DNA of 64,000 bases, taken from the NCBI RefSeq assembly GCF_007197755.1, contig NZ_CP041636.1, positions 558,001 through 622,000 of the forward strand, read 5' to 3'. The DNA comes from Ferrovibrio terrae. Lineage in GTDB: Bacteria > Pseudomonadota > Alphaproteobacteria > Ferrovibrionales > Ferrovibrionaceae. Positions 985 through 19,714 of this stretch are shown in pieces (positions within the stretch are counted from its first letter, which is position 1; every line of letters starts with the position of its first letter). Made by a program: the position numbers and the translations under genes. The notes under the pieces are model-generated. The model was not told the origin of the DNA. It was given only the letters and a program-made list of their open reading frames with translations, and searched no databases.

Positions 985-2908
985 CGGCGGAGCGCCCCTT
1001 GGCCGCGAACAGCCCGCGCGGGCGTTTCTGGATGAACAGGATGATGCAGACCAGCACCACCACCTTGCCGAGCACAGCGCCGGCCACCGGTTCAAGGATC
1101 TTGTTGACGACGCCGAGCGTGAGCGCACCGACCAGCGTGCCCATCAGGCTGCCGACGCCGCCGAAGACGACGACGAGGAAGCTGTCGACGATGTAGATGG
1201 TACCCAGATTGGGTGAGACATTGCCGATCTGGCTGAGCGCCACGCCAGCCATGCCGGCGATGCCGGAGCCCAGCGCGAAGGTCATGGCATCGACGCGCGC
1301 GGTGGGAATGCCCATCACGGCGGCCATCTGGCGGTTCTGCGTCACGGCGCGCATATGCAGGCCAAACGCCGTGCGCTTGAGGATCAGCGCGATCAGGCCC
1401 AGCACCAGGAAGCAGAAGATGATGATGTAGACGCGGTTCCAGGTGACGGCCAGGCCGCCGGCGACTTCGATGGCGCCGGTCATCCAGGAGGGATTGGCGA
1501 CTTCCTTGTTGGTGGCGCCGAAGATGCTGCGCACCGCCTGCTGCAGGCAGAGGCTGACGCCCCAGGTGGCCAGCATGGTTTCCAGCGGCCGGCCGTAAAG
1601 GAAGCGGATCACGCCGCGTTCGATGGCGACGCCAACAGCCGCCGCGATCAGGAAGGCGACCGGCAGCGCCACGATCAGATAGGCGCCGATCCAGCCGGGC
1701 GGCAGCAGGGCACGGAAGATTTCCTGCGTCAGATAGGCCGAATAGGCGCCGAGCATGATCATCTCGCCATGCGCCATGTTGATCACGCCCATCACGCCAA
1801 AGGTGATGGCGAGGCCGACGGCCGCAAGCAGCAGCACCGACCCGAGCGAGATGCCCTGGATGAAATTCTCGACATAGGAATAGAGCGTGATCTTGGTCTG
1901 CATCCGGTCGAAGGCTTTCACCAGCGCCGCCTTCACATCGGCATCCTGCTCTTGATTCAGGCGGGCCTGCAGCAGGGCGCGCACGCGCAGATCGGATGCC
2001 GTGCCCAGCACCGCGATAGAGTCGAGGCGTTTCACCTTGTCGGGATGCGCAATCTCGGCGGCCGCCAGGCTGAGTGCCATCACGCGTTTCACGCCATCCA
2101 CCGATTCACGACCATAGGCCTCCCGCAGCAGCGCGACGGTTTCGGGGGTGGCATTTTCCAGCAGTGCATTGGCGGCCATGCTGCGCGCGGCCTGATCGGA
2201 ACTGCTCAAGCCCAGACGGCCGACCGCCTCACGCAGCACATTGCGCAGGTTGTTGTTGACGAACAGCGGCTCCAGCGTGCCCGCCGACACCGCCCCAAGC
2301 GAACTGCCGTCCAGCGGCGAGGTCAGCGCGATCTCGTTGCCGCTCGGCGCGCCGATCACCATCAGGCCGTCCGACTTGCGCAGCAGCAGCCGGCCATCGG
2401 CCAGCGCGCGGAAGACAGGAATGGCGCGCACATCGCCCAATGCGGTCAGCGCGTCGATGGCCTTGCCCTTGTCGGCGAAACTGTCGCTCTTCAGGCCAGC
2501 CAGCGCGGTGGCGAAATCGACCGGTTCACTGCTGGCGGCGGGACCGGCGCCGGCCAGCAAGGCCTTGGCTTCCTCGGGCACCGCAATGGCCTGCAGATCT
2601 TCCGGTTTCGCCATATCCTCGATATCGCCGGTGGCAGCGTTGGTCACGACGATCATCTCGCCGTCCTTCTCGCCGATCACCACGGCGTTGTCGGAAAGCC
2701 GCAGATAGAGATTGCCCGCGGCCAGAGCGGCAAGCGCGGCTTTTGCCTTGTCGTCGCTGCTCTGTGTCAGCGCCTGAATGGCCGGTTTGGGATCACTGTC
2801 GGTCAGGCCGGACAGCGTGGCGGTCAGGTCCTGCGCACCGGCGGGGCGCACGCTGGCGACCAGCGCCAGCATCAGGACGACCAGCAGAAGGGGCAGATAG
2901 CGTTGCAT
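977..2908 (-). CDS. urtB: Urea ABC transporter permease UrtB with a duplicated N-terminal domain
   Basis: Second membrane subunit (LivH-type) of the urea importer. From the ATG at 2908 it has 643 aa: a signal peptide (about residues 1-26, ending GAQ), a long periplasmic part to about residue 340, then a LivH-type permease (GEMIMLGAYSAY, GVVNKILEP near the end). An open frame continues 37 codons further upstream, but 2908 directly precedes a good signal peptide, so I chose it. The N-terminal part holds two similar units, about residues 28-110 and 132-217. Both contain ALA-x-G-x-L-x-LR-x-SD followed by VIG and a D/TG turn. UrtB proteins commonly have one such unit, so this looks like an internal duplication and explains the unusual length. 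Confidence 0.94.
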   Translation of the reverse strand: MQRYLPLLLVVLMLALVASVRPAGAQDLTATLSGLTDSDPKPAIQALTQSSDDKAKAALAALAAGNLYLRLSDNAVVIGEKDGEMIVVTNAATGDIEDMAKPEDLQAIAVPEEAKALLAGAGPAASSEPVDFATALAGLKSDSFADKGKAIDALTALGDVRAIPVFRALADGRLLLRKSDGLMVIGAPSGNEIALTSPLDGSSLGAVSAGTLEPLFVNNNLRNVLREAVGRLGLSSSDQAARSMAANALLENATPETVALLREAYGRESVDGVKRVMALSLAAAEIAHPDKVKRLDSIAVLGTASDLRVRALLQARLNQEQDADVKAALVKAFDRMQTKITLYSYVENFIQGISLGSVLLLAAVGLAITFGVMGVINMAHGEMIMLGAYSAYLTQEIFRALLPPGWIGAYLIVALPVAFLIAAAVGVAIERGVIRFLYGRPLETMLATWGVSLCLQQAVRSIFGATNKEVANPSWMTGAIEVAGGLAVTWNRVYIIIFCFLVLGLIALILKRTAFGLHMRAVTQNRQMAAVMGIPTARVDAMTFALGSGIAGMAGVALSQIGNVSPNLGTIYIVDSFLVVVFGGVGSLMGTLVGALTLGVVNKILEPVAGAVLGKVVVLVCIILFIQKRPRGLFAAKGRSADA

Positions 2909-2972
2909 GGGTTCGATGACCGCTGCGATTTTTATAACGAGGACGGAATGGATTTTTTGTTGGGCGACCCAA

Positions 2973-3009
2973 ACCCCTTCCTGCGCAGCATTGCCGCGAA
3001 GGAAGGGGT
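2973..3009 (-). terminator. Hairpin between urtA and urtB
   Basis: A perfect 9-bp inverted repeat (ACCCCTTCC at 2973-2981, GGAAGGGGT at 3001-3009) with a 19-nt loop lies between the urtA stop and the urtB start. No U-run follows it in the direction of transcription, so it is more likely an mRNA stabiliser or partial attenuator than a full terminator. It would let UrtA, the binding protein, be made in excess over the permeases. Confidence 0.5.
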
Positions 3010-3032
3010 CGGATGCCATTTACGTTACGCGC

Positions 3033-4325
3033 TTAGTTGACGAGGGCCGCGTATTTCGGCTTCTCGCAGTTGCCGCAGACCCAGGGGAAGGTCCAGTCGG
3101 CGGTCAGCTTGGCGCTTTCCGGGATGAACTTCGACCAGGCGTCGGCCTTCACCGGACCCTTGGTCTGCCAGACGGTGTTGAACTGGCCGTCGGGGCGGAT
3201 TTCACCGATCAGCACCGGCTTGGACAGGTGGTGATTGGTATTCATCACCGAGGTGAAGCCCGAGGGAGCCTTCACCTTCTGGCCATACATCGCCTGACGC
3301 ACGGCATCCACGTTGGTGGTGCCGGCCTGCGCAACCGCCTGGGCCCACATCTTGAAGCCGATATAGGTGGCTTCCATCGGGTCGTTGGTGACGCGCTTGT
3401 CGTTCTTGATGAAGGTCTTCCACTGCTTGATGAAGGCATCGTTGGTCGGGTTCTTCACCGACTGGAAGTAGTTCCAGGCAGCCAGATGGCCGACCAGATC
3501 CTTGGTGTCGATGCCGGCGAGTTCCTCTTCGCCGACCGAGAAGGCCACGACCGGAATATCGGAGGCCTTGATGCCCGCGTTGGACAGTTCCTTGTAGAAC
3601 GGCACGTTGGCGTCGCCGTTGATGGTCGAGACCACGGCGGTCTTCTTGCCCGCCGAGCCGAACTTCTTGATGTCGGCCACGATGGTCTGCCAGTCGGAAT
3701 GACCGAACGGCGTGTAGTTGATCATGATGTCTTCCTGCTTCACGCCCTTGGCTTTCAGGAAGGATTCCAGGATCTTGTTGGTGGTGCGCGGATAGACGTA
3801 GTCAGTGCCGGCCAGGACCCAGCGCTTCACTTCGCCGCCTTCCTTGCTCATCAGGTATTCCACCGCCGGGATCGCCTGCTGGTTCGGCGCCGCACCGGTG
3901 TAGAACACGTTCTTCGAGCTTTCCTCGCCCTCATACTGGACGGGGTAGAACAGCATGCTGTTGAGTTCCTCGAACACCGGCAGCACCGACTTGCGGCTCA
4001 CCGAGGTCCAGCAGCCGAACACCACCGAGACCTTTTCCTTCGAGATCAGTTCGCGCGCCTTTTCGGCAAACAGCGGCCAGTTGGAGGCCGGGTCGACCAC
4101 GACCGCCTCGACCTTCTTGCCGAGCAGACCGCCCTTCTTGTTGATGTCATCGACCATCATCAGGACGGTGTCCTTCAGGGTCGTCTCCGAGATCGCCATG
4201 GTGCCGGACAGCGAATGCAGGACGCCAACCTTGATCGTGTCCTGCGCCATAACCGGCGCACTGCCGACGGCGACTGCGCCCAGCATGGCGCCTGCCGCGG
4301 CCATCGTCCGCATAAACTTGGTCAT
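3033..4325 (-). CDS. urtA: Urea ABC transporter substrate-binding protein UrtA
   Basis: Periplasmic urea-binding protein of the Urt system, 430 aa. A signal peptide (MTKFMRTMAAAG to VMA, about residues 1-27) is followed by the family opening DTIKVGVLHSLSGTMAISE. The motifs WTSVSRKSVLPV and NSMLFYPVQYEGEESS are typical of UrtA and not of leucine/isoleucine-binding relatives. The start at 4325 has a strong AGGAGAGGAAG ribosome-binding site; the frame stays open upstream but without signal-peptide logic. It is first in the urtABC operon and is preceded by a sigma-54 promoter at 4384-4400, consistent with nitrogen-limited expression. Confidence 0.96.
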   Translation of the reverse strand: MTKFMRTMAAAGAMLGAVAVGSAPVMAQDTIKVGVLHSLSGTMAISETTLKDTVLMMVDDINKKGGLLGKKVEAVVVDPASNWPLFAEKARELISKEKVSVVFGCWTSVSRKSVLPVFEELNSMLFYPVQYEGEESSKNVFYTGAAPNQQAIPAVEYLMSKEGGEVKRWVLAGTDYVYPRTTNKILESFLKAKGVKQEDIMINYTPFGHSDWQTIVADIKKFGSAGKKTAVVSTINGDANVPFYKELSNAGIKASDIPVVAFSVGEEELAGIDTKDLVGHLAAWNYFQSVKNPTNDAFIKQWKTFIKNDKRVTNDPMEATYIGFKMWAQAVAQAGTTNVDAVRQAMYGQKVKAPSGFTSVMNTNHHLSKPVLIGEIRPDGQFNTVWQTKGPVKADAWSKFIPESAKLTADWTFPWVCGNCEKPKYAALVN

Positions 4326-4383
4326 TGAGACTTCCTCTCCTGCTTGGGCCGAGCCCCCCAGGCCGGCCTGACAGGAAAGGAAT

Positions 4384-4400
4384 GGCAAGGAGCGTGCCAA
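4384..4400 (-). promoter_or_regulatory. Sigma-54 (RpoN) promoter for urtABC
   Basis: On the minus strand the sequence reads TTGGCACG, then CTCC, then TTGCC. This matches the -24/-12 consensus YTGGCACG-N4-TTGCW at every fixed position except the last base. The invariant GG and GC are exactly 10 bp apart. Transcription would begin about 12 bp downstream, near 4373, giving a leader of roughly 48 nt before the urtA ATG. RpoN promoters need an enhancer-binding activator such as NtrC, which fits a urea importer. Confidence 0.8.
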
Positions 4401-4401
4401 G

Positions 4402-4428
4402 CGGACCATGCCGTGGCGGTATGGTCCG
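4402..4428 (-). promoter_or_regulatory. Imperfect palindrome abutting the sigma-54 site
   Basis: Arms CGGACCATGCCG and CGGTATGGTCCG with a 3-bp centre pair over 12 positions with one G-T. It lies immediately upstream of the -24 element. It could be a binding site for a regulator or an architectural protein, or it could form a hairpin in RNA started at the upstream sigma-70-like promoter. It does not match the NtrC consensus well. Confidence 0.45.
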
Positions 4429-4579
4429 ATAGCCCGCATAATTCGCTGATTCCGCGCCGCAATATGACAGGCCCGCGAGTTATCCACCGGGGCGATTCAA
4501 ACTTTGGTCGATACGCAATCGGGGCGGGTCAATGCGCTTTAATTGGGCATAGACCTTTCAAAAAAAAGGCAGCGGTTAA

Positions 4580-4633
4580 AATATAGGCAGAACCCCGCGC
4601 CGGCGAATGAGTCAGATGACTCAAATTGAGTCA
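4580..4633 (-). promoter_or_regulatory. Sigma-70-like promoter with three TGAGTCA boxes
   Basis: On the minus strand TTCGCC (4607-4602) and TATATT (4585-4580) are separated by 16 bp. Directly upstream of the -35 lie three copies of a 7-bp box: TGAGTCA 4608-4614, TGACTCA 4617-4623 and TGAGTCA 4627-4633. Each box is itself a near-palindrome. Clustered boxes that end at the edge of a weak -35 are typical of activator sites. The regulator is unknown. Confidence 0.5.
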
Positions 4634-5494
4634 GAACTTCCAGAGCCTCGGCATCGCCGGCCGCAGGTCGAGTCCGGGCCTCAGGGCCGACCACAGGCGG
4701 GCAAACTGCCGGCGCAATCGGGCGGCATCGGCATCGAGCAGCCGGACCAGCAGCAGGCTATCGATCACCGTCGCGCCCCATTCGCAGCCGGGTTCGCGAC
4801 CGGGAAGTTCGCGCAGGCAGTCGCGCGCGCCAGCCGCATCCGGGCCCTGATAGAGGATCACCGCCTGTGCCGCCGCACCGGCAAAGCCGGCGGGATGATC
4901 GAGCAGAGCCGTCGTGTCGTCCTTCAGGCGGGTGGCATCGGTCCAGATCAGGCGGCCGTCGCGGCGCACCTGCCAGCGGTCGAACAGGCTGCCAGAGGCA
5001 AAGCGCTCGCCGCGCGCGGTGCGACCGAACACCGTGATGTCGCCAGCCAGCAGACGGCTGTCGGCCTTGAGCGACACGGCAATGCGGCGATCCAGCCGCG
5101 CGCCATCGAACAGGATCATCTCCTGCGGCAGCCATTCCAGCGCCGCATCGGCCGCGACATCGAGAGTCAGATCAATCTGTGCCGCGCTGTCATCGGGAGA
5201 ACGGTAGATTTTCTCGGCGGCCTGCGGCGTACAGAGTGCGGTAGCATGGGCATCGACAGTGACAGAGAGATTCAACCGGTCGCCACCGGTCAGGCCGCCG
5301 GCCGTGGTGATCAGCACGGCTGTGATCGGCTCGCCCGGATCGGGCGACGGCAGCAGGGCACGACAAGGATCGGACTGATAGAGATCGGCCAGGCGCGTGC
5401 CACCATCGTCCTGCCCGCCATTCCGTTCAGCGGTGAAACGCAGGGTGAGCGCGCCATTGGCGCGCTGCAGGCGCGGTGCCGGTGCCGCTGTCAC
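4631..5494 (-). CDS. ureD: Urease accessory protein UreD
   Basis: UreD (UreH) is the scaffold that joins UreF and UreG on apo-urease during nickel-centre assembly in the cytoplasm. The 287-aa protein shows the family blocks ITTAGGLTGGDR (residues 62-73), TPQAAEKIYRS (89-99) and a LPQEMILFDGARL segment. The start is a GTG at 5494 with AGAGGAG seven bases upstream. No urease subunit genes (ureABC) or ureEFG are in the window; they probably lie beyond urtC at the left or elsewhere. The gene lies on the urt strand, 305 bp upstream of urtA. A terminator hairpin sits only 26 bp upstream of its start, leaving no room for a promoter in between. Confidence 0.93.
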   Translation of the reverse strand: MTAAPAPRLQRANGALTLRFTAERNGGQDDGGTRLADLYQSDPCRALLPSPDPGEPITAVLITTAGGLTGGDRLNLSVTVDAHATALCTPQAAEKIYRSPDDSAAQIDLTLDVAADAALEWLPQEMILFDGARLDRRIAVSLKADSRLLAGDITVFGRTARGERFASGSLFDRWQVRRDGRLIWTDATRLKDDTTALLDHPAGFAGAAAQAVILYQGPDAAGARDCLRELPGREPGCEWGATVIDSLLLVRLLDADAARLRRQFARLWSALRPGLDLRPAMPRLWKF

Positions 5495-5576: not shown

Positions 5577-6413
5577 TTAGACCACCGTGGCGTGGCGCTC
5601 GATGCAGGTCTTCAGCACCGCATCGGCGTCCTTCTTCCACCAGTTGCCGGTCGACATGATCTCGACCTCACAGAAACCGTCATAGCCGACGCCTTCGACC
5701 ATGGCGCGGATCGACGGGATGTCAATCACGCCATCGCCCATCATCCCTCGATCCAGCAGCAGGTCGGTGGTCGGCACCAGCCAGTCGCAGACATGGAAAG
5801 CCAGCACGCGCTTGTTCGCCCGCCTGATCTGCGCCGCCAGGGTCGGGTCCCACCAGACATGATAGACGTCGACGGCGACGCCGAGATGGCGGTCGTTCGG
5901 CCCGGAACCGAGCGCATCGCAGATATCGAGCGCCTGCGCCACCGTGTTCACGCAGGCGCGGTCGGCGGCATACATCGGATGCAGCGGTTCGATCGCCAGC
6001 GGCACATTGGCCGCGCGGGCATGTTCCAGCACAGCCGCGATGCCATCCTGCACTTGGCTCCGGGCCCCGGCGAGATCGCGGGAACCAGAAGGCATGCCGC
6101 CAACCACCAGCACCAGGCACTGCGCGTTCAGGGCAGCGGCATCATCAATCGCGCGCTTGTTGTCCTCGATCGCCGCCTGCCGCCCGGCCGCATCTGCGGC
6201 GGGGAACATGCCGCCGCGGCAGAGACCGGTGACGGTCAGGCCGACCTCACGGATATGTTTCGCGGCTTTCGCGGTCGTGTACTCCGCCAGCTTGTCGCGC
6301 CAGGGCGAAATGCCGGTAATGCCATGGCGCGCGCAGCCTTCGATACACTGCTGCAGCGACCACTGTTCCTTCACAGTCGCCGTATTGAGCGACAGAGGAC
6401 CCGGTTTCGTCAT
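5577..6413 (-). CDS. Sugar phosphate isomerase/epimerase-like TIM-barrel protein (second copy)
   Basis: Xylose-isomerase-like TIM barrel (AP endonuclease family 2 fold), 278 aa, last gene of the five-gene catabolic operon. Likely divalent-metal ligands are visible in the usual places: E142 in IEPLHP, D182 and H185 in VDVYH, H207 in FHVCDW, and E251 near CEVEIMS. Members isomerise or epimerise sugars and inosose-type polyols, so this one probably acts on the operon's sugar or polyol intermediate. The start ATG at 6413 overlaps the stop of the DUF993 gene (ATGA) and has AAGGGA upstream. A second, divergent copy of the fold opens the same operon (10188-11015). The substrate is unknown. Confidence 0.85.
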   Translation of the reverse strand: MTKPGPLSLNTATVKEQWSLQQCIEGCARHGITGISPWRDKLAEYTTAKAAKHIREVGLTVTGLCRGGMFPAADAAGRQAAIEDNKRAIDDAAALNAQCLVLVVGGMPSGSRDLAGARSQVQDGIAAVLEHARAANVPLAIEPLHPMYAADRACVNTVAQALDICDALGSGPNDRHLGVAVDVYHVWWDPTLAAQIRRANKRVLAFHVCDWLVPTTDLLLDRGMMGDGVIDIPSIRAMVEGVGYDGFCEVEIMSTGNWWKKDADAVLKTCIERHATVV

Positions 6414-7573
6414 GCGGCAATCCCTTGCGTCGCCATCACTGCCTTCATGCGGCTGGCGGCGCGGTCCGGATCGCTGAGCAGCCCGGCCGCATCGGCCAGA
6501 CGAAACAGCTCGGCCAGATGCTGGGCCGAGCGCGTGCTCTGCTGGCCGCCGACCATCACGAAGTGATCCTGATGGCCGTTGAGATAGGCCATGAAGACAA
6601 CGCCGGTCTTGTAGAATCGCGTCGGCGCCTTGAAGATATGCCGCGACAGCGGCACCGTCGGCGCCAGCAACTCATGGAAGGTCTTTTCATCGCCGCGTGT
6701 CAGCGCGCCGATTGCGGACGAAGCCGCCGGCGCGATGGCATCGAAAATGCCGAGTAGCGCATCGGAGTAACCTTCCGCATCGCCGGCAATCAGTTCGGCA
6801 TAGTTGAAGTCGTCGCCGGTATACATGCGCACGCCCTTCGGGAGCTTGCGGCGCATGAGGATTTCCTTGTCCTTGTCCAGGAGCGAAATCTTGATGCCGT
6901 CAACCTTGGCGGCATTGGCCTTGATCACATCGAGGCAGGTGTCCATCGCCTTGAGATGGTCGCCATTGCCCCAGTAGCCGGTCAGCGCGGGATCGAACAT
7001 CTCGCCCAGCCAGTGCAGGATTACCGGCTGCTTCACCTGGGAGAGAATCCGGCTGTAGACCTTCGCATAATCATCCGGCGATTTGGCCGCAGCGGTGAGC
7101 GCGCGGCTCGCCATCAGGATGATGCGACCGCCGAGCTTCTCGATGGCGCCGCACTGCTCCTCATAGGCCGCGATCACCTTGTCGATGGTGACGTCTGGCC
7201 CCGGCGCCAGATGATCGGTGCCGGCACCCGAAGCCACCGTCGCGCCCGGCACGTCCTTCGCCGCATCGAGCGAACGGCGCACCAGTTCCAGTGCATCCTT
7301 CCAGTCCAGCCCCATGCCGCGCTGGGCGGTGTCCATGGCTTCCGCCACACCGAAACCGAGCGACCAGAGATGCTGGCGGAACGCGATCGTGCGGTCCCAG
7401 TCGATCGCCGGCGTCAGCCATGGATCATGTTCGGCAAGAGTGTCCGCCACCACATGCGCCGCCGCGTAAGCCACACGGCTGAACGGTGGCTTCGCGGCCG
7501 GGAAGGCCTTGGGCTGCTTCAGCGTATAGGGTGCCAGCTTGCCGGCGCCGGCAGGCAGGTTGAGCGTCGTCAT
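6410..7573 (-). CDS. DUF993 family protein (dihydrodipicolinate-synthase-like TIM barrel)
   Basis: 387-aa member of the DUF993 family, distantly related to dihydrodipicolinate synthase/N-acetylneuraminate lyase type aldolases. Lys228 in DGIKISL is positioned like the Schiff-base lysine of that superfamily, and HWLGEMFDPALTGYWG (187-202) is a strongly conserved-looking block. By analogy it may cleave a 2-keto-3-deoxy acid or similar compound into pyruvate and an aldehyde, but no activity is established for the family that I know of. It sits between a Gfo/Idh/MocA dehydrogenase (5 bp upstream) and an isomerase-like gene (4-bp overlap), in an operon that also encodes an enolase-superfamily protein. 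Confidence 0.82.
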   Translation of the reverse strand: MTTLNLPAGAGKLAPYTLKQPKAFPAAKPPFSRVAYAAAHVVADTLAEHDPWLTPAIDWDRTIAFRQHLWSLGFGVAEAMDTAQRGMGLDWKDALELVRRSLDAAKDVPGATVASGAGTDHLAPGPDVTIDKVIAAYEEQCGAIEKLGGRIILMASRALTAAAKSPDDYAKVYSRILSQVKQPVILHWLGEMFDPALTGYWGNGDHLKAMDTCLDVIKANAAKVDGIKISLLDKDKEILMRRKLPKGVRMYTGDDFNYAELIAGDAEGYSDALLGIFDAIAPAASSAIGALTRGDEKTFHELLAPTVPLSRHIFKAPTRFYKTGVVFMAYLNGHQDHFVMVGGQQSTRSAQHLAELFRLADAAGLLSDPDRAASRMKAVMATQGIAA

Positions 7574-7577
7574 GTTT

Positions 7578-8732
7578 TTACGCCTTCAATTCCGGCAGGT
7601 CGATCCAGCGGCGTTCCTTCCAGCTCTTCAGGCCGGCTTCGGCGAGCTGCACGCCCTTGGCGCCTTCCAGCAGCGTCCATTTGAACGGTTCGTTGTCGAC
7701 CAGATGGCGGATATACATTTCCCACTGGGCGCGGAAGCCATTGGTGTAGATCTGGTTGTCGGGGACTTCCTGCCAGGTGTCGAAGAAGTCGATGGTCTGC
7801 GGCACATCGGGATTCCATACCGGCTTCGGCGTGTTGACGCGAGCCTGGGTGCGGCAGCTGGTGAGACCGGCGACCGCCGAACCCAGCGTGCCGTCGACAT
7901 GGAAGGTGACGAGGTCGTCGCGGCGCACGCGAGTGGTCCAGGATGAATTGATCTGCGCGATCACGCCGCTCTTGAGCTGGAAGGTGGCATAGGCCGCATC
8001 ATCGGCATCGGCCTTGTAGGGCTTGCCGTTCTCGTCCCAGCGCTTCTTGATATGCGTCGCGCCGAGGCAGGACACGCTCTCGACTTCACCGAACAGGTTG
8101 TCGAGCACGTAGCGCCAGTGGCAGAGCATGTCGAGGATGATGCCGCCGCCATCCTTGTAGCGGTAGTTCCAGCTGGGGCGCTGCGCCTGCTGCCAGTCGC
8201 CTTCAAAGACCCAGTAGCCGAACTCGCCGCGTACCGACAGGATCTCGCCGAAGAAGCCGCTGTCAATCAGCATCTTGATCTTCTGCAGGCCGGGCAGGAA
8301 CAGCTTGTCCTGCACCACGCCGTGCTTGACCTTGTATTTCTTCGCCGCCTTCACCAGGTCCATGGCGACGCTGAGCTTCTCGGCGGTCGGCTTTTCGCAG
8401 TAGATGTCCTTGCCGGCGGCCATCGCCTTTTTCAGCAGGCCGGCGCGCGCCTGCGTGGTGGCGGCATCGAAGAACAGCGTGTCGTCCTTGTTCTTCAGCG
8501 CGGCATCCAGATCGTCGGTATAGCGGTCAATGCCATGCGCCTTGGCCAGACGGGCCACCTTGTCGAGGTTGCGACCGACCAGGATCGGATCGGGCATCAC
8601 GCGGCGGCCATTCTTCAGTACCACGCCGCCATCCTTGCGGATCGCGCAGATCGAACGGATCAGATGCTGGTTCATGCCCATGCGCCCGGTGACGCCGTTC
8701 ATGATGATGCCGAGACGGATATCCTTGCTCAT
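7578..8732 (-). CDS. Gfo/Idh/MocA family oxidoreductase
   Basis: NAD(P)-dependent dehydrogenase of 384 aa with an N-terminal Rossmann domain and a C-terminal alpha/beta dimer domain. Seen: the nucleotide-binding turn GVTGRMG (13-19) and the family motif EKP (113-115) with its conserved lysine. Family members oxidise or reduce sugars, inositols and their acids. Here it probably supplies the redox step of the five-gene operon. The ATG at 8732 has AAGGA nine bases upstream. The gene follows the enolase-superfamily gene by 16 bp and precedes DUF993 by 4 bp. Confidence 0.9.
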   Translation of the reverse strand: MSKDIRLGIIMNGVTGRMGMNQHLIRSICAIRKDGGVVLKNGRRVMPDPILVGRNLDKVARLAKAHGIDRYTDDLDAALKNKDDTLFFDAATTQARAGLLKKAMAAGKDIYCEKPTAEKLSVAMDLVKAAKKYKVKHGVVQDKLFLPGLQKIKMLIDSGFFGEILSVRGEFGYWVFEGDWQQAQRPSWNYRYKDGGGIILDMLCHWRYVLDNLFGEVESVSCLGATHIKKRWDENGKPYKADADDAAYATFQLKSGVIAQINSSWTTRVRRDDLVTFHVDGTLGSAVAGLTSCRTQARVNTPKPVWNPDVPQTIDFFDTWQEVPDNQIYTNGFRAQWEMYIRHLVDNEPFKWTLLEGAKGVQLAEAGLKSWKERRWIDLPELKA

Positions 8733-8748
8733 GGTGTCTTGTCCTTCT

Positions 8749-10191
8749 TCAAGAATTCAAAGTCATGGGGGCGAGATTGCCCCAATCTGGTTCGGCGTCC
8801 GACCCGAAGGCCGTGGCGTCCATGGTGCTGCGCAGATCGAGAGTGCCGTTGCGGATGCTGAGCCGCACGCGGCCGCTTTTTGGATCGCGGTGATAGAGAT
8901 CGGGATGGGCCGCGAGGAACGCATCCTGCTCAGCCTGCGGTGCCGTGCCGAAACCATCCACATAATGATGGCCGTTGCGTTCGACATCGCCGAGGCCAAG
9001 GGCTGCCACGAGGGCAAGGTCCTGCTGCAGGGCGAGGCCGGCCTGGCAGGTGAGGTCCTCGCCAGTAATGAAATAATGCGAGCTATTACTTTCCTGGCCC
9101 CAATGGGCGCAGCGCGCCGCATTCAGGATGGCGCGGTAGACGCCCTTGCAGGTCTTGGACGAGATGCCGCCATAGCCCAGTTCGCGCGCCTTGGGGAAAA
9201 CGTCGTAATCGGCATCGGATTCATCGACGATCAGCGGAATTTCGGCGGCGAGTTTTGCCACCGGCTGGGCCAACGCGGCGGCGCGCTTGATCGGCTGTTC
9301 GATGTAGATGATCGAGGAGATCAGCCGCCGCAGCATGCGATCGTCCTTCATGGCCGCCCAGAGCGCGGCAATGCCGTTGACGTCGTCATACTGTTCGTTG
9401 CCGTCCAGGCTGGCACGATAGGGCTCGCTCGATTGGTCGAGCACGGCGGCGATGCCCTGCAGGCGGGCCAGATCGCTCTCTACATTGCCGCCGACCTTCA
9501 GCTTGAACCAGCGGTGACCATACTGCGCCACCGCGCCTTCCAGACTTTCCGGCAGGCCGTCATTCAGCCGCGGCGCAGCCACATCGCTTTCACGCAGCGG
9601 ATCGATCAGGCCGACAGTATGTCGCGCGGCGATAAAGCGACCGGTCTTCAGCGAGCCAAGCCAGCCATCGAGATCGAAACCGGCCAGATCCGGCGTGAGG
9701 GCCGCGGCGTCGATGCCGAACTGGTTCCTGCCCAGCAAAGCCACGAAGGGCACGCCGCGCAGACGGCAAAGCGCATCGATCACTGCACGATCCAGCAGCG
9801 CGGCGCCGTAGGACACCACCAACGCATTCAAGTCCTCGCCTGCGCCATGCCGCACCAGGGCAGCGTGATGCGCGGCGGAATGGCCGAAGGCGGTACGCGG
9901 CGTGGGATCGGCGGCGTAAGCATTCACCGCATTCAGCAGGCTGCGGCGCAGCTGATCGAAATTCTGCTCGTTGGAGAGCGCCGGATTCTTGTCGAACCAT
10001 TTTGGCGCCATCAGTTCGGCAGCCGAGCCCCATGCGCTGCGGCCATCGGGCAAGCTAATACGCAACCGGGCATAAGCCTGCGGGGCCGCCGTCAGCGTCA
10101 CCACGCCGAAACGGAACGGCAGGCGCAGCGTGACCGGCCGCTCAAACAGCTGGATTTCGCCGATGGTGAAACCGGGCGCTTCGGTTTTCAT
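8749..10191 (-). CDS. Enolase-superfamily (mandelate racemase/muconate lactonizing type) protein
   Basis: 480-aa protein with enolase-superfamily features: a KxK pair (K230, K232 in FKLKVGG), metal-ligand candidates D263 (DGN), E298 (IEQP) and D323 (VDES), and a further lysine K346 in SSK. This arrangement of two lysines plus a later lysine resembles the muconate-lactonizing subgroup. Most sugar-acid members dehydrate an aldonate or aldarate to a 2-keto-3-deoxy acid, so I infer a dehydratase or epimerase role. It is longer than the usual 360-420 aa, with extra sequence N-terminal to the barrel. It overlaps the first isomerase gene by 4 bp (ATGA). Confidence 0.82.
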   Translation of the reverse strand: MKTEAPGFTIGEIQLFERPVTLRLPFRFGVVTLTAAPQAYARLRISLPDGRSAWGSAAELMAPKWFDKNPALSNEQNFDQLRRSLLNAVNAYAADPTPRTAFGHSAAHHAALVRHGAGEDLNALVVSYGAALLDRAVIDALCRLRGVPFVALLGRNQFGIDAAALTPDLAGFDLDGWLGSLKTGRFIAARHTVGLIDPLRESDVAAPRLNDGLPESLEGAVAQYGHRWFKLKVGGNVESDLARLQGIAAVLDQSSEPYRASLDGNEQYDDVNGIAALWAAMKDDRMLRRLISSIIYIEQPIKRAAALAQPVAKLAAEIPLIVDESDADYDVFPKARELGYGGISSKTCKGVYRAILNAARCAHWGQESNSSHYFITGEDLTCQAGLALQQDLALVAALGLGDVERNGHHYVDGFGTAPQAEQDAFLAAHPDLYHRDPKSGRVRLSIRNGTLDLRSTMDATAFGSDAEPDWGNLAPMTLNS

Positions 10192-11015
10192 GCCGCCGCT
10201 CCCAGCAGGTTGCGTAAGTATCGGATCGAATGCGCGGCGACGCCCGGGCCGTTGGGCTCATAGATGAAAGGCTCGACGCCGATATCGCCGGCGTAGTCAT
10301 GCTGCTTCAGCGCGGCGATGATCGGCACGAAATCCATATCGCCCTGGCCGGGGCCCTTGCGATTGGGATCGTTGACCTGGATATGCGAGATCAGACCGCT
10401 CGGCATCCAGCGTGCGATCAGCTCGGCGACGCTTTCCTCTTCGGCCAGGCCGGCGGCGCTGCAGTCGATCATGGTACGGAAGCTGTTGCTGCCGATGCCC
10501 TCGACCACGCCGATGGCTTCGGCCACCGTGTTGATGAAATTGGTTTCGCGGCGCGACAGCGGCTCGACGCAATAGATCACACCGGCCTTCTCGGCCGCAC
10601 GCGCTGCATAGCGGAAGGCCTCCAGCGCATAGCCCTTGGCGGCATGGATGTCGCGCTCGGGCAGCTGGCGCTGCGCCGGCGAACCATGCACCAGATACCT
10701 GCCGCCCAGATCGGCGCAGAGCTCGCACAGGCCCTGCATCATGTCGCGGGTACGGCGGCGCACCGCCGGATCGGTATCGGTGATCGACATGCCCTTGGGC
10801 GTGACCAGCAGCCAGTGCAGGCCGGTGACCGCGAGTCCGGTTTCTTCTACAGCGCGGCGAATGACCTTGCGCTCGGCTGCCGTCAGGCTGAGTGGGTCTT
10901 CGCTCAACGTGAACGGCGCGATTTCCAGCCCGTCATAGCCAAGTTCCGCCGCCAGCGTGCATTGTGCAGCGAACGGCAGACCGGCAAGAACCTCATTGCA
11001 GAGCGAGATGCGCAT
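10188..11015 (-). CDS. Sugar phosphate isomerase/epimerase-like TIM-barrel protein (first copy)
   Basis: Xylose-isomerase-like TIM barrel, 275 aa, first gene of the TetR-linked operon. Candidate metal ligands are E151 (CVEPLS), D184 (MIDCSAAG), H211 (SHIQVND) and E248 (GVEPF). It shares the fold but little obvious sequence with the second copy at 5577-6413, so the two may act on different intermediates. The ATG at 11015 lies about 27 bp from the predicted transcription start, and an operator-like palindrome covers the start site. The substrate cannot be told from sequence. Confidence 0.85.
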   Translation of the reverse strand: MRISLCNEVLAGLPFAAQCTLAAELGYDGLEIAPFTLSEDPLSLTAAERKVIRRAVEETGLAVTGLHWLLVTPKGMSITDTDPAVRRRTRDMMQGLCELCADLGGRYLVHGSPAQRQLPERDIHAAKGYALEAFRYAARAAEKAGVIYCVEPLSRRETNFINTVAEAIGVVEGIGSNSFRTMIDCSAAGLAEEESVAELIARWMPSGLISHIQVNDPNRKGPGQGDMDFVPIIAALKQHDYAGDIGVEPFIYEPNGPGVAAHSIRYLRNLLGAAA

Positions 11016-11031: not shown

Positions 11032-11051
11032 AAGTAACTAGTCAGTTACTT
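11032..11051 (-). promoter_or_regulatory. TetR-type operator of the catabolic operon
   Basis: Perfect inverted repeat, arms AAGTAACT and AGTTACTT with a 4-bp AGTC centre. It overlaps the -10 element and predicted start site of the operon beginning at 11015, a position where a bound repressor would block transcription. A site matching it at 15 of the 18 core positions, with equal half-site spacing, occurs at 14340-14359 in front of tctC. The TetR gene at 14396-15061 is the likely cognate regulator. Confidence 0.7.
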
Positions 11052-11092: not shown

Positions 11093-12613
11093 TCAGGCGC
11101 GCCGGAACGGACGCAGCAGCAGCGCGGTCCCCTGCCCCAGGACGCGCCGGGCGACCGGGACATTCATCAGGATGGTGAACAAAACAAGCAGGAAGATGAC
11201 GAAGGCAATCGGGCGGCCGAAGAAGGGCGTCAGGTCGCCATCCGACAGGCTGAGGCCGCGGCGCAGGCTCTTGTCGAGCAGGTCGCCCAGCACGATGCCA
11301 AGCACCAGCGGCGCCATCGGGTAGTTCAGGCCACGCATTACCAGGCCGACAATGCCGAAGACCAGCATGACCAGAATATCGAAGGGTCGCGCGGCGATCG
11401 CGTAGGAGCCGACCGTGCAGAGCACGAAGATCACCGGCATCACCAGGGCGCGCGGCACCAGCAGGATCTTGACCAGCAACTTGGTCAGGGTCAGGCCGTA
11501 GATCAGGATACCGATCGAGGCGAACAGCATCATGGCAACGACGTCGTAAACGAAGGTCGGATTTTCCACCATGATCATCGGACCCGGACGCACGCCATGG
11601 ATCAGCATGGCGGCGAGCAGCACGGCGGCAGGCGCCGAGCCCGGCACGGCCAGCGTCAGCACCGGAATGACGGCACCCGGCACGCAGGCATTGTCGCCGG
11701 TTTCGGCGGCCATCAGGCCTTCGACCGACCCCTTGCCGAACTTTTCCTTTTCCTTGCTGGCGCGGCGCGCGGCGGCATAGGAGCTCCAGGCCGCGACATC
11801 CTCGCCCACACCCGGCACGATGCCGATGAAGGTGCCGATCAGGCCCGAGCGGATAATGGTGCGCCAGTACTGCACCACGTCTTTGATCTTTGGGACAACC
11901 GTGTCGTAGGTGTTGATGATGAATTTCTGCGGCTTGTCCTTCATCACGTTCAGCACTTCGGCGAATCCGAAGACGCCGACCAGCGCCGGGATCAGCGCAA
12001 TACCGCCCGAAAGATCATGCACGCCGAAGGTGAAGCGGTCGTAGGCATACATGCCTTCCTGGCCGATGGCGGCAATGAAAAGCCCGATGAAGCCGGCGAT
12101 CCAGCCTTTCAGCGGATCGGTGCCGGTGAGGTTGCCCGAAATCACCACACCGAAGACGGCGAGCCAGAAGAATTCATAGGCACCGAATTTCAGCGCCATT
12201 TCACCCAGGATCGGCGTGAACAGCGCCAGGAAGAACATGCCGATCCAGGTGCCGAGGATCGAGCCGGAGGTGGCGATGCCCATGGCGCGGCCGGCCAGAC
12301 CCTGCTTGGCCAGTGCATGACCATCGAGGCAGGAGGCGGCCGATGCCGGCGTGCCCGGAATGTTAAGCAGGATGGCGCTACGGCTGCCGCCATAGATCGA
12401 ACCGACATAGGTGCAGATCAGGATCAGTAGGGCCTGGTCGGACGGCAGCTTGAGCGTGAGCGTGGTCATCAGCGCCACGCCCATGGTGGCGGTGAGGCCG
12501 GGCAACGCGCCGATGATCAGACCGATCAGAGAGGCGCAGAGCGCGTAAAAAATGGTTTCCGGGCTGGCGAAATTCCAGATCGAATGGGCAAAGCCGAACA
12601 GACCGTCAAACAT
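11093..12613 (-). CDS. tctA: Tripartite tricarboxylate transporter large permease TctA
   Basis: Twelve-helix-class membrane subunit of a TTT importer, 506 aa, hydrophobic throughout. The N-terminal segment GALPGLTATMGVALM (35-49) and the motif IPGTPASAA are hallmarks of TctA. TTT systems use a proton or sodium gradient to take up carboxylates captured by the periplasmic TctC. The gene ends the tctC-tctB-tctA operon. Its stop at 11093 is 78 bp from the start of the catabolic operon, and the gap holds that operon's promoter and operator. Substrate is probably a carboxylate linked to the downstream pathway. Confidence 0.94.
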   Translation of the reverse strand: MFDGLFGFAHSIWNFASPETIFYALCASLIGLIIGALPGLTATMGVALMTTLTLKLPSDQALLILICTYVGSIYGGSRSAILLNIPGTPASAASCLDGHALAKQGLAGRAMGIATSGSILGTWIGMFFLALFTPILGEMALKFGAYEFFWLAVFGVVISGNLTGTDPLKGWIAGFIGLFIAAIGQEGMYAYDRFTFGVHDLSGGIALIPALVGVFGFAEVLNVMKDKPQKFIINTYDTVVPKIKDVVQYWRTIIRSGLIGTFIGIVPGVGEDVAAWSSYAAARRASKEKEKFGKGSVEGLMAAETGDNACVPGAVIPVLTLAVPGSAPAAVLLAAMLIHGVRPGPMIMVENPTFVYDVVAMMLFASIGILIYGLTLTKLLVKILLVPRALVMPVIFVLCTVGSYAIAARPFDILVMLVFGIVGLVMRGLNYPMAPLVLGIVLGDLLDKSLRRGLSLSDGDLTPFFGRPIAFVIFLLVLFTILMNVPVARRVLGQGTALLLRPFRRA

Positions 12614-12631: not shown

Positions 12632-13165
12632 TTACGGCAGCCGGACAAGGAACAGTTCTTCAAAGACATACTGGATCGCCCAGCCAGCGAGCACACCATG
12701 CACCACGGCCACGGCGATGCCGCGCGGCACCTGCCCGGCGGCGCGGCGCTCGGCATACTGGAAGACGATCACGAAGGCGCTGACATAGATGGCCGTGACC
12801 AGCCAGAAAGGCATGGAGCTGGAGACAATCACCAGCGCATAGACCAGCGACAGGCCGAGGCTGAAGATCAGGCGCCAGTGATCGCGCAGCACCAGCCGGA
12901 CCGGGGCGCGGCCCTGCAATGCGCCGGCGCGCACCGCGCGCAGCATCAGGATGCCGCCCATCAGTGCAATCGCAAAACCCAGCAGGCCCGGTACAAGGCC
13001 GGGCGCGGTGTAGATGCTGGCCTGGAAGCGCTCAAGGCGGTCCATCCGCAAACTGATCACGACAATGGCAAAACCCAGTACAATCCAGACCACGGCGGAC
13101 CAGAAGTCGGCGCGCGGCGGAACCGCCGGTTCGGCAGCGGTGGATTGAACGGGATTCTGATCCAT
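12632..13165 (-). CDS. tctB: Tripartite tricarboxylate transporter small permease TctB
   Basis: Small membrane subunit of the TTT importer, 177 aa with four to five predicted helices. The start was set at the ATG at 13165, which has AGGAG ten bases upstream. The frame is open to 13210, but that would add a stretch lying in the hairpin region. It lies between tctC (72 bp, containing a hairpin) and tctA (18 bp). Sequence in this family is poorly conserved, so the call leans on size, topology and position. Confidence 0.88.
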   Translation of the reverse strand: MDQNPVQSTAAEPAVPPRADFWSAVVWIVLGFAIVVISLRMDRLERFQASIYTAPGLVPGLLGFAIALMGGILMLRAVRAGALQGRAPVRLVLRDHWRLIFSLGLSLVYALVIVSSSMPFWLVTAIYVSAFVIVFQYAERRAAGQVPRGIAVAVVHGVLAGWAIQYVFEELFLVRLP

Positions 13166-13189
13166 TGCGATAACTCCTGAAAAGCAAAT

Positions 13190-13222
13190 CGGCCGCCCGG
13201 CTTTTGCCAAGCCAGGCGGCCG
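13190..13222 (-). terminator. Hairpin between tctC and tctB
   Basis: Arms CGGCCGCC and GGCGGCCG extend by GGC/GCC across one C-A mismatch (about 12 bp, 9-nt loop). On the minus strand it is followed by ATTTGCTTTT. It resembles an attenuating intrinsic terminator that would let TctC be made in excess over TctB and TctA. Confidence 0.6.
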
Positions 13223-13237
13223 TTCTGTTTACGCGTC

Positions 13238-14257
13238 TTACGGCTTCGGAATGCCGATGGTTTCCGGATTGATCTTGGCCTTGCCGCCTTCCTGCAGGAT
13301 CCAGGCAGCGCCCTGGATCGCCGGGAAGGACGCCTTCTTGGCATCATCGCCAAAGCGCGGATCGAACAGGGCGCCCTTATCGGCCGAATACTTCTGCAGG
13401 GCTGCCGACTTCTTGATCTTCTCTTCCCAGATCTTGTTCAGCGTGGCGGTCACTTCCGCCGGCACGCCCTTGGGAACGAAAATGCCGAAATAGTTGATCT
13501 CGGTGCGGAAGCTCGGCAGCGTCTTGGTGATCGGCTCGATCGGCGGCACGCCATCGACCACCAGCGGCTTGTCGGCCAGCACGGCCAGCGCACGCAGGCG
13601 CTTACCGCGGATCATCTCGATCTGCTCGACGCCCAACTGGCTGGTCACTTCGGTTTCGCCGGCCACCGTGGCGATCACCGCCGGATTGCCGCCATCGTAC
13701 GAGACGTGCTTGTAGGTGGCGCCCGCGGCGCGCGACAGCGCTTCCGAACCGTAGTGGCCCGAGGAATTCACGCCGGCGGTGGCGAACGAGACCTGACCCG
13801 GCTTGGCCTTCATGGCGGCCAGCAGGTCGGCAACGCTTTTGTACGGCGTGTTCGGATTGACGCTGATCACCGCCTGATTCGCAACGGCGAGATAGAAATC
13901 CCAATCCTTCGAGGTGGTGTCGAGCAGGCCGGACACGGCATAGGAACCAATATCCTTGGCAGCGCCCGAAGCCCAGGTGTAGCCGTCCTTCTGGCCTTCC
14001 AGCACGCTCTTGGTGCCGATCGAACCCGAGGCGCCGGGCTGGTTCACGACCACGATCTTCTGGCCGAGTTCTTTTTCCAGTTCCGCGGCCGTAACGCGGA
14101 TCACCTGGTCGGTGGAGCCGCCGGCAGCCCAGGGCACGATGATGGTGATCGGCTTGGTCGGCTTCCAGTTCTGCGCATCGGCCGGCTGGGCGACGAGGCC
14201 CAGGGTGCCCAGCGCGAATGCGGCCACAGCGATACGAATAGCAAGCTTGCCTTGCAT
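13238..14257 (-). CDS. tctC: TTT substrate-binding protein TctC (Bug family)
   Basis: Periplasmic binding protein of the Bug/TctC family, 339 aa. A signal peptide covers about residues 1-28 (ending PADAQ). The family signature PITIIVPWAAGGSTDQ follows. Bug proteins bind carboxylates, amides and aromatic acids through water-bridged contacts. It is the first gene of tctCBA, with an excellent GGAGGAG ribosome-binding site before the ATG at 14257. The leader carries two hairpins (14277-14291 and 14298-14326) and a TetR-type operator at 14340-14359, tying this importer to the operon beginning at 11015. Confidence 0.93.
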   Translation of the reverse strand: MQGKLAIRIAVAAFALGTLGLVAQPADAQNWKPTKPITIIVPWAAGGSTDQVIRVTAAELEKELGQKIVVVNQPGASGSIGTKSVLEGQKDGYTWASGAAKDIGSYAVSGLLDTTSKDWDFYLAVANQAVISVNPNTPYKSVADLLAAMKAKPGQVSFATAGVNSSGHYGSEALSRAAGATYKHVSYDGGNPAVIATVAGETEVTSQLGVEQIEMIRGKRLRALAVLADKPLVVDGVPPIEPITKTLPSFRTEINYFGIFVPKGVPAEVTATLNKIWEEKIKKSAALQKYSADKGALFDPRFGDDAKKASFPAIQGAAWILQEGGKAKINPETIGIPKP

Positions 14258-14328: not shown

Positions 14329-14359
14329 TGTCAACGGGGAAGTAACCGTTCAGTTACGA
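14329..14359 (-). promoter_or_regulatory. TetR-type operator and -35-like element upstream of tctC
   Basis: The operator half-sites GTAAC (14342-14346) and GTTAC (14353-14357) are spaced exactly as in the operator at 11032-11051, and 15 of 18 core positions agree. A TTGACA (14334-14329 on the minus strand) lies 5 bp downstream of it. I cannot see a good -10 at the normal distance, so the exact promoter is uncertain, but the shared operator is clear. Confidence 0.6.
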
Positions 14360-14395: not shown

Positions 14396-15061
14396 TTACG
14401 GCCGCAGGAAGCCCAGCACCACTTCCATCGAATGGTCGAGGCGGATTTTCTGCTGTTTCGCCGACAGCAGGTTGCGGCCGAAGATGGTCGACAGCGTATG
14501 GATGTTGGAAAAATAGAAGAATCCAAGTGCCGCAATCGTCGTGTAAAGCTCGACCGGGTCCACGTTTTTACGGAACACGCCTTCCTTCTGACCGCGCTGC
14601 AGCAAATCGGTGATCACCACCAGCAGCGGGGTGTAAAGCTCGCGAATCTTCTTGGAATCCTTCAGATAACTGGCCTTGTGCAAATTCTCGGCATTCAGCA
14701 GCGCGATGAACTCCGGATTGCGGGAACAGAATTTGAAATTGAATTCCATCAGGTAGCGCATGCCCTCTTCCGGCTTCATACGCGCCACGTCGATGGCATG
14801 CTCCTCTTCGCGCATCCGCGTATAGGCGTTTTCCAGCACGGTGAGCCACAGGCCCTCCTTGTTGCCGAAATACTCGTAGATCATGCGCTTGTTGGAGCCC
14901 GACCGTGCGGCGATCTCGTCGACCCGCGCCCCGGCCAGACCCTTGGCGGCGAATTCCACCAGCGCCGCATCGAGAATGTTGCGCCGCGTCACGTCCGGCT
15001 GGCGCGGTTTGGCCCCAGCAGATTTGGCCTTTACAGGCTTGGCGGATTTCGACTTGGTCAT
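14396..15061 (-). CDS. TetR/AcrR family transcriptional regulator
   Basis: 221-aa one-component regulator. A lysine-rich N-terminal tail of about 20 residues precedes the TetR helix-turn-helix (about 24-70: NILDAALVEFAAKGLAGARVDEIAARSGSN, then KRMIYEYFGNKEGL). The rest is a helical ligand-binding domain. It lies between pxpA (66 bp upstream, same strand) and tctC (138 bp downstream). Near-identical operators before tctC and before the five-gene operon make it their probable repressor, with an intermediate of the pathway as inducer. A link to the upstream pxp operon by cotranscription cannot be excluded. Confidence 0.9.
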   Translation of the reverse strand: MTKSKSAKPVKAKSAGAKPRQPDVTRRNILDAALVEFAAKGLAGARVDEIAARSGSNKRMIYEYFGNKEGLWLTVLENAYTRMREEEHAIDVARMKPEEGMRYLMEFNFKFCSRNPEFIALLNAENLHKASYLKDSKKIRELYTPLLVVITDLLQRGQKEGVFRKNVDPVELYTTIAALGFFYFSNIHTLSTIFGRNLLSAKQQKIRLDHSMEVVLGFLRP

Positions 15062-15898: not shown

Positions 15899-15916
15899 CG
15901 CCAGTCTCCACCCAAA

Positions 15917-17685: not shown

Positions 17686-17709
17686 GCCCGAGTCATAAGA
17701 CGGAGTGGC

Positions 17710-18390: not shown

Positions 18391-18426
18391 GGGGCGAATC
18401 CTGTAGGTTAACCGAAGGCCAATATT

Positions 18427-19710: not shown

Positions 19711-19714
19711 CGGA

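Follow-up and report, generated by a model that had tools for sequence, protein, structure and literature searches.

Two described catabolic systems come closest to the locus considered here. The myo-inositol (iol) and levoglucosan routes likewise combine a Gfo/Idh/MocA dehydrogenase with xylose-isomerase-like enzymes, and to our knowledge neither contains a DUF993 or an enolase-type step. The oxidative uronate route (Udh, galactarolactone cycloisomerase, KdgD) likewise uses an enolase-type and a DapA-type enzyme on a sugar acid. In Ferrovibrio terrae, a stretch of 64,000 nucleotides (the window: contig NZ_CP041636.1, positions 558,001 to 622,000; coordinates below count from its first letter) carries two xylose-isomerase-like genes (XI1 and XI2), an enolase-superfamily gene (ENO), a Gfo/Idh/MocA dehydrogenase gene (GFO) and a gene for a DUF993 protein. 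An earlier note on this DNA had seen in these five genes an undescribed carboxylate or sugar-acid pathway. According to our analysis DUF993 is likely to be the centre of a catabolic pathway that is inducible and undescribed, and the substrate is probably a sugar acid. We give about an even chance to the fuller reading, a two-module catabolic operon that is under TetR control and serves a sugar-acid-type carboxylate. The inositol and levoglucosan routes were not adopted as assignments since their NCBIfam cut-offs are not reached; the oxidative uronate route was not adopted because the five genes include no uronate dehydrogenase, and ENO and DUF993 are distant from its named enzymes.

Neither DUF993 nor its Pfam accession PF06187 is named in the open-licence literature searched. 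A functional assignment for the family or for orthologs of the set was not found there, nor was a described pathway with this set, which agrees with the novelty claimed earlier. Close relatives of three proteins have solved structures: 4dnh (SMc04132) for DUF993, 3ju2/3qc0 (SMc04130) for XI1 and 3oqb for GFO. These entries are labelled as hypothetical or uncharacterized, sugar isomerase or oxidoreductase, and their PDB codes occur in no relevant open-licence paper. The genes SMc04132, SMc04133 and SMc04135 appear in a table of a PhaR study (PMC12542648). As for import, another article describes a tripartite tricarboxylate transporter that binds, and can take up, alginate (uronate) oligosaccharides; for other transporters of the kind it names aldarate and D-glucarate as cargo (PMC13390454). 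Importers of this type can carry sugar acids.

The five open reading frames (ORFs) lie on the minus strand and occupy positions 5577-11015 exactly, in the order XI2-ENO-GFO-DUF993-XI1. They are separated, in that order, by a 4-nt overlap, 16 nt, 4 nt and a 4-nt overlap, and this spacing confirms their tight coupling. Pfam identifies both xylose-isomerase-like proteins (AP_endonuc_2, 135.7 and 135.9 bits), GFO and DUF993 as the earlier note had named them. Upstream are TctA, TctB and TctC, followed by a TetR regulator; the tripartite tricarboxylate transporter set is complete, with TctA and TctC over the Pfam cut-off and TctB below it in the expected place. None of these nine proteins reaches an NCBIfam cut-off, and five of them (DUF993, ENO, TctA, TctB and TctC) match no NCBIfam model at all at E 0.001.

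The five-gene set is real and co-occurs beyond chance. Many bacteria of soil and water have such genes side by side, often downstream of one and the same operator. In a sample of 398 Pseudomonadota genomes, with ENO called by profile at E 1e-60, DUF993 is present in 36, ENO in 15 and both in 14 (Fisher p 2e-15; 2e-14 excluding the own genome); the two counts apparently refer to one and the same set of sampled genomes. Because 9 of the 14 genomes belong to one genus (g16), the genus-level count is fairer: DUF993 occurs in 6 of the 7 ENO genera (p 1.5e-6). Thirteen of the 14 have an ENO-DUF993 gap of 1.2-1.4 kb, space for one gene, and the fourteenth (G270) has the two on separate contigs. In the six of these loci that were mapped besides the window (L101, L102, L103, L106, L108, L150), GFO fills this gap. 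With 14 of 15 ENO genomes carrying DUF993, an absence of co-occurrence, which would have spoken against the earlier proposal, is ruled out. The same gene set, for which the earlier note had recommended a search in other genomes, was indeed found among near kin. These near kin are 80 named loci, the best 80 of 438 relatives, a choice biased to close kinship. The counts come from six-frame matches and not from the GC-position heuristic by which genes in unannotated loci were called; since just 52 of the 80 loci reach at least 19 kb, some of the gene losses are cut contigs. XI1 was found in 75 loci, GFO in 71, ENO in 31 and XI2 in 23; the GFO+DUF993+XI1 triad is present in 69 and all five genes in 21, or in 15 of the 74 loci outside the six Ferrovibrio-like ones (two of which are named just Alphaproteobacteria). 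GFO has the same orientation and is no more than 150 nt away in 70 of 71 loci, as is XI1 in 60 of the 73 measured. Gene order varies: Roseomonas-type loci have ENO and XI2 inverted downstream, and marine alphaproteobacterial bins have a second Gfo gene inserted. Of 20 regions, each taken from a different one of the 36 sampled genomes with DUF993, 9 contain the triad, 5 contain ENO and none contains XI2 at the threshold used. The DUF993 family also occurs on Actinomycetota plasmids.

The set consists of two modules, a GFO-DUF993-XI1 core and an optional XI2-ENO feeder. Among the near-kin loci, XI2 accompanies ENO in 23 of 31 cases and is absent from all 49 loci that lack ENO. TctA follows the same pattern (12 of 31 against 0 of 49; 6 of 25 against 0 of 49 when the Ferrovibrio-like loci are removed), and in the 20 phylum regions an NMT1-type ATP-binding cassette (ABC) importer is present in 5 of 5 regions with ENO and in 0 of 15 without. 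Distant TctA matches (33-34%) without ENO occur in the plasmid locus L132, and the many Roseomonas TctC neighbours (~31% identical) were given no weight. The triad elsewhere adjoins sugar ABC importers, and in 42 of 69 triad loci, some of them short, ENO was not seen. ENO in turn occurs without a nearby DUF993 in Rhizobium leguminosarum and a relative, where its neighbours are KduI/IolB, a glycosyl hydrolase (GH39 where tested, L126), a xylose-isomerase-like protein and a 2-hydroxyacid dehydrogenase; in a haloarchaeon, close to heparinase II/III; and in genome G156, with XI2 and a short-chain dehydrogenase/reductase (SDR). These glycan links of the ENO relatives (GH39, KduI/IolB, heparinase II/III) count in favour of a sugar acid. 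The independent occurrence of triad and ENO makes a single linear five-step pathway doubtful. Of the five genes as one pathway, then, the undescribed and co-occurring set stands, and the fixed line gives way to two modules. Enzymes of the enolase superfamily require a carboxylate, and this need together with the Tct/ENO link underlies the carboxylate reading. The carboxylate substrate read earlier from the adjacent importer is accordingly supported for the ENO/XI2 module, with which TctA travels, and more weakly for the triad with its sugar ABC importers.

The operator GTAAC-N6-GTTAC precedes both TctC and XI2, so the shared operator seen earlier is real. A search of the window with 2 mismatches returns 3 rows for 2 places, compared with 0.00 expected (100 shuffles). 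The 2-mismatch pattern in the whole own genome gives the two window places and one other 2-mismatch place, and a backward control finds 1. Across 132 examined loci (2.29 Mb) the operator is found at 89 places in 72 loci, and eight control patterns in the same loci give 0, 0, 3, 0, 9, 0, 1 and 0. The cluster gene nearest to these 89 sites is GFO in 28 cases, DHDPS2 (see below) in 22, TctC in 11, XI2 in 6, TetR in 5, NMT1 in 4, acyl-coenzyme A (CoA) dehydrogenase in 4, DUF993 in 3, AKR2 in 1 and none in 5. A TetR homolog is present in 70 of the 132 loci and 57 of these carry the operator, as do 15 of the other 62, of which 12 are just 4 kb long. The strict site is absent from 13 of the 70, including the g16-type L101 and L102, in which a variant operator was not searched. 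We infer that the TetR protein binds the operator.

Several further genes stand close to the operator. A PhyH family Fe(II)/2-oxoglutarate dioxygenase gene follows it directly in L080, L087, L091 and L140 (ORF at L140:10734-11492; related ORFs in L077, L080, L087, L091 and L107), a placement that suggests an oxygenase step (hydroxylation or demethylation) ahead of the DUF993 route in such loci. A Meth_synt_2 gene of the cobalamin-independent methionine-synthase family (L138:3871-4893; relatives in L022, L073 and L107) lies by an NMT1-type binding protein near an operator and might provide a demethylation step. In Roseomonas-type loci the gene between the operator and GFO, immediately ahead of the latter, is often that of DHDPS2, a distinct DapA-family protein (L062:7769-8827 and cluster mates) that scores far under the NCBIfam cut-offs. 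Proteins of DUF2264, presumably a glucuronidase family (GH154), are encoded near TetR/Gfo genes with the operator (L139:11889-13844 and L104:13636-15519), in two genomes with genes similar to those of S. meliloti.

The DUF993 protein matches PF06187 with 626 bits (cut-off 24) over the whole model (1-382). Its predicted structure (predicted local distance difference test, pLDDT, 88.6) is a (beta/alpha)8 barrel of the dihydrodipicolinate synthase (DHDPS)/NAL type, which aligns with 4dnh at Z 54.5 and with DapA-type structures at Z 29.2-30.0 over ~288 residues (root-mean-square deviation 2.4-2.6). K228 is paired by hhalign with the Schiff-base lysine of the DapA GVKDATG motif on strand 6, and the best phmmer stretch against DapA, starting at query 224 and chain 157, has the same register at a non-significant score (E 0.38). 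All 40 aligned sequences, the least similar of them at 44% identity, agree at K228, H187 and T82. K228 thus stands, by alignment and conservation, as the candidate Schiff-base lysine that the earlier note had proposed. DUF993 shares barrel fold and lysine position with the DHDPS/NAL superfamily (DapA, KdgD, 2-keto-3-deoxy-acid aldolases), and differs from it in being ~90 residues longer and in having its own conserved motifs, HWLG-x-MFDP and TGDDFN. On strand 5, H187 occupies the position of the catalytic tyrosine, Tyr133, and a conserved EAMDTAQRG segment replaces GTTGE, the pyruvate-carboxylate loop. In Streptomyces yangpuensis a DUF993 gene (~43% identical, L098:8998-10188) adjoins genes for a type I polyketide synthase and for a mycofactocin-coupled SDR, which perhaps reflects a biosynthetic use of the family.

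These replacements bear on the linear route of the earlier note, in which isomerase, dehydrogenase and dehydratase steps lead to DUF993 as a pyruvate-type aldolase that releases pyruvate plus an aldehyde. The DapA-type fold and the aligned lysine agree with it, as does the five-gene order, which the six Ferrovibrio-like loci share with L092 (~3 kb before XI1) and with an annotated Paroceanicella record. Because the catalytic tyrosine has become histidine and the pyruvate loop is replaced, the pyruvate-plus-aldehyde ending is nevertheless unsupported; moreover, 5 of the 80 loci encode an aldolase of the HpcH/HpaI type (GarL/HpaI-like) in addition to DUF993, and in 42 of the 69 triad loci ENO, the dehydratase of such a line, is not visible. 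We regard this route as unlikely. A lysine-Schiff-base enzyme that lacks the pyruvate loop should act on another type of ketone.

ENO reaches 34.5 bits for Pfam MR_MLE_C (cut-off 29.4), and its predicted model (pLDDT 91.7) has the two-domain enolase fold over residues 7-478. K230, K232, D263, D323 and K346 are invariant in 38 aligned sequences and E298 is conserved in at least 90%; D263, E298 and D323 occupy the positions of the enolase metal ligands on strands 3 to 5. Of the KxK and third-lysine layout proposed earlier, K230-x-K232 stands and K346 is likewise invariant, with its equivalence to the third lysine less firm (see below). The model matches muconate-lactonizing, dipeptide-epimerase, cycloisomerase and racemase types about equally (Z 27.9-29.9), so the fold does not pick a reaction. 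In fold, KxK and metal ligands ENO resembles galactarolactone cycloisomerase (4ggb, 4hpn) and 3,6-anhydrogalactonate cycloisomerase (5olc). Unlike these named cycloisomerases it carries EDLT and ERNGHH motifs of its own; among the 50 matches listed, identity to enolase-superfamily structures is 13-21%, and ENO has 480 residues compared with 338-389. A profile search of PDB with ENO gives no match at 1e-5.

The remaining enzymes also keep residues that fit their families (rows at least 97% identical to the window were omitted from these counts). E151, D184, H211 and E248 of XI2 are conserved in at least 98% of 25 sequences and E142, D182, H207 and E249 of XI1 in at least 98% of 106, sets that fit a metal site; in GFO, the likely catalytic E113-K114-P115, D201 and H205 are unchanged in at least 98% of 95 sequences. 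The near-full-length PDB match of GFO is 3oqb, labelled just 'Oxidoreductase'. The N-terminus of GFO reads GVTGRMG (G13, T15, G16, R17, M18 and G19 conserved in at least 98% of the same 95 sequences), which is closer to the nucleotide-binding motif of DapB than to the customary GxGxxG. All named NCBIfam models score below cut-off: inositol 2-dehydrogenase (TIGR04380; 74 of 355 bits) and levoglucosan dehydrogenase (NF052479; 65.7 of 650) for GFO, and 5-keto-L-gluconate epimerase IolO (NF041099) for XI2 (96 of 300) and XI1 (50 of 300). XI1 has four PDB matches, namely IolI (E 5e-5), a sugar isomerase, an uncharacterized protein and a xylose isomerase.

DUF993 and XI1 also occur on plasmids near an acyl-CoA dehydrogenase gene, in Sinorhizobium (pSymA), Paracoccus, Sagittula, Janthinobacterium, Rhodococcus and Rhizobium NLR16a. 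Such loci, here class B, carry varying additional genes: SDR, CoA-transferase, enoyl-CoA hydratase, GMC oxidoreductase, aldehyde dehydrogenase, aldo/keto reductases, glycerate kinase and sugar ABC importers (names from annotations, representatives checked by Pfam/NCBIfam). In a DUF993 tree of 53 rows, thinned from 115 labelled loci plus the window, with 7 changes per label, most class B rows are separate from the clade of the window; the labels are noisy because weak acyl-CoA-dehydrogenase neighbours (30-36%) tagged some Roseomonas loci as class B. Eight loci have an acyl-CoA dehydrogenase at least 56% identical to the reference beside DUF993. In five of them (L094, L129, L095, L130 and L131) the operator stands just before this gene. 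Its presence before several acyl-CoA-dehydrogenase/SDR/DUF993/XI1 operons implies that DUF993 and XI1 probably process a ketone made by different dehydrogenases, and an inducer common to the Gfo route and the class B route is likely. We tentatively propose, at clearly less than even probability, that DUF993 is a new Schiff-base lyase acting on a dehydrogenase-made ketone instead of a pyruvate-type 2-keto acid, and that with XI1 it forms a portable core behind either Gfo (for a sugar-acid route) or acyl-CoA dehydrogenase/SDR (for a CoA route), under one TetR operator.

Class B also enters a carbocyclic alternative, in which the substrate is a cyclitol or carba-sugar acid, GFO acts as an inositol dehydrogenase and XI1 as IolI/IolE, DUF993 opens or cuts the ring, and the class B enzymes first oxidise a CH2OH group to an acid and activate it as a CoA ester. 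Inositol 2-dehydrogenase is, below threshold, the best NCBIfam match of GFO, IolI is among the PDB matches of XI1, and class B supplies GMC oxidase, aldehyde dehydrogenase, CoA-transferase, acyl-CoA dehydrogenase and SDR in varying sets. The NCBIfam scores are however far under the cut-offs, the ENO relatives adjoin glycan enzymes and no sign of a cyclitol was seen, which makes the alternative improbable. That XI2-ENO-TctCBA and GFO-DUF993-XI1 are two unrelated pathways, co-regulated or mere neighbours, would suit the finding of each module without the other nearby and the divergent orientation of ENO/XI2 in Roseomonas-type loci, but seems similarly improbable given that ENO lies one gene from DUF993 in 13 of the sampled genomes and that the same operator occurs at both transcription starts of the window.

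Several observations weigh against the operon for a sugar-acid-type carboxylate. The importer type varies by lineage (TctCBA, NMT1-type ABC, sugar ABC), and the substrate may therefore differ too. Class B resembles the oxidation of an alcohol to a CoA ester more closely than it resembles sugar-acid chemistry, and the operator is present in just five of its eight counted loci, two of them (L094 and L129) from S. meliloti; it was not found in L093, L097 and L128. Whole-genome searches covered 33 DUF993 genomes (29 of the 35 non-own sample positives and 4 of 11 from a second set). The stricter form GTAACYRNNYRGTTAC occurs at 11 positions in 7 of them and is absent from 26, including the large genus g16, and the backward-pattern control gives 6 positions in 6 genomes. 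As a count of 11 is near this background, it is the location at DUF993 (8 of the 11), not the genome-wide count, that speaks for the motif; of the other three sites, one is by a TetR/Gfo pair (L139), one by an NMT1 binding protein next to a methionine-synthase-like gene (L138) and one is uninformative (L137). The hhalign probability for DUF993 and DapA is just 60%, with few effective sequences, and an earlier comparison with one DapA sequence gave 0.1%, the larger profile pairing the same lysine. Finally, in the phmmer pairwise alignment K346 of ENO is two residues off the third lysine of the muconate-lactonizing type.

For the two-module operon, the steps and their order can be inferred as follows. 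TctCBA would import an acid, the keto form of which XI2 may epimerise or isomerise. ENO would take the proton adjacent to the carboxylate and expel a beta-oxygen, by dehydration or ring opening, and GFO would use NAD(P) to oxidise a hydroxyl of the ring or chain. The ketone so produced could form a Schiff base with Lys228 of DUF993, which would cleave a C-C or C-O bond via retro-aldol reaction or beta-elimination. XI1, as a putative metal-dependent isomerase, would then turn the product into an input for central metabolism.

Features of the DUF993 locus in the window, with the evidence for each
Feature	Position	Strand	Evidence
XI1, xylose-isomerase-like, close to S. meliloti SMc04130 (3ju2/3qc0)	5577..6413	-	Pfam AP_endonuc_2
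DUF993 protein, proposed Schiff-base lyase	6410..7573	-	PF06187, predicted fold, K228 alignment
GFO, Gfo/Idh/MocA dehydrogenase	7578..8732	-	Pfam GFO_IDH_MocA domains, PDB match 3oqb
ENO, enolase-superfamily protein, proposed dehydratase/cycloisomerase	8749..10191	-	Pfam MR_MLE_C, residues, predicted fold
XI2, xylose-isomerase-like TIM barrel nearest IolO / ketose 3-epimerases	10188..11015	-	Pfam AP_endonuc_2
Operator before XI2, palindrome AAGTAACT-GACT-AGTTACTT	11032..11051		Pattern search; GTAACTGACTAGTTACTT at 11032-11049
TctA, permease of tripartite tricarboxylate transporter	11093..12613	-	Pfam TctA 457.8 bits
TctB, small membrane subunit	12632..13210	-	Pfam TctB 25.7 bits (cut-off 29.1) and position
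TctC, solute-binding protein	13238..14257	-	Pfam TctC 98.7 bits
Operator before TctC, GTAACTGAACGGTTACTT	14340..14357		Pattern search
TetR-family regulator (TetR_C_29)	14396..15061	-	Pfam

The set is bounded by a UreD-like gene (4631-5494) and a LamB/PxpA-like gene (15128-15898), both named by eye. By the same kind of reading, 977-5494 appears to be a urea importer/urease region that includes the UreD-like gene, and 15128-20314 contains 5-oxoprolinase-like genes and an importer like those of the tripartite ATP-independent periplasmic (TRAP) type.

For the DUF993 family no assigned substrate was found, even though structures have been solved for relatives of three of these five proteins. A direct way in is offered by the operator together with the modular layout, since the inducer would name the pathway. 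If the proposed chemistry is true, a Schiff-base enzyme lacking the customary tyrosine and pyruvate loop would extend the known repertoire of the aldolase fold.

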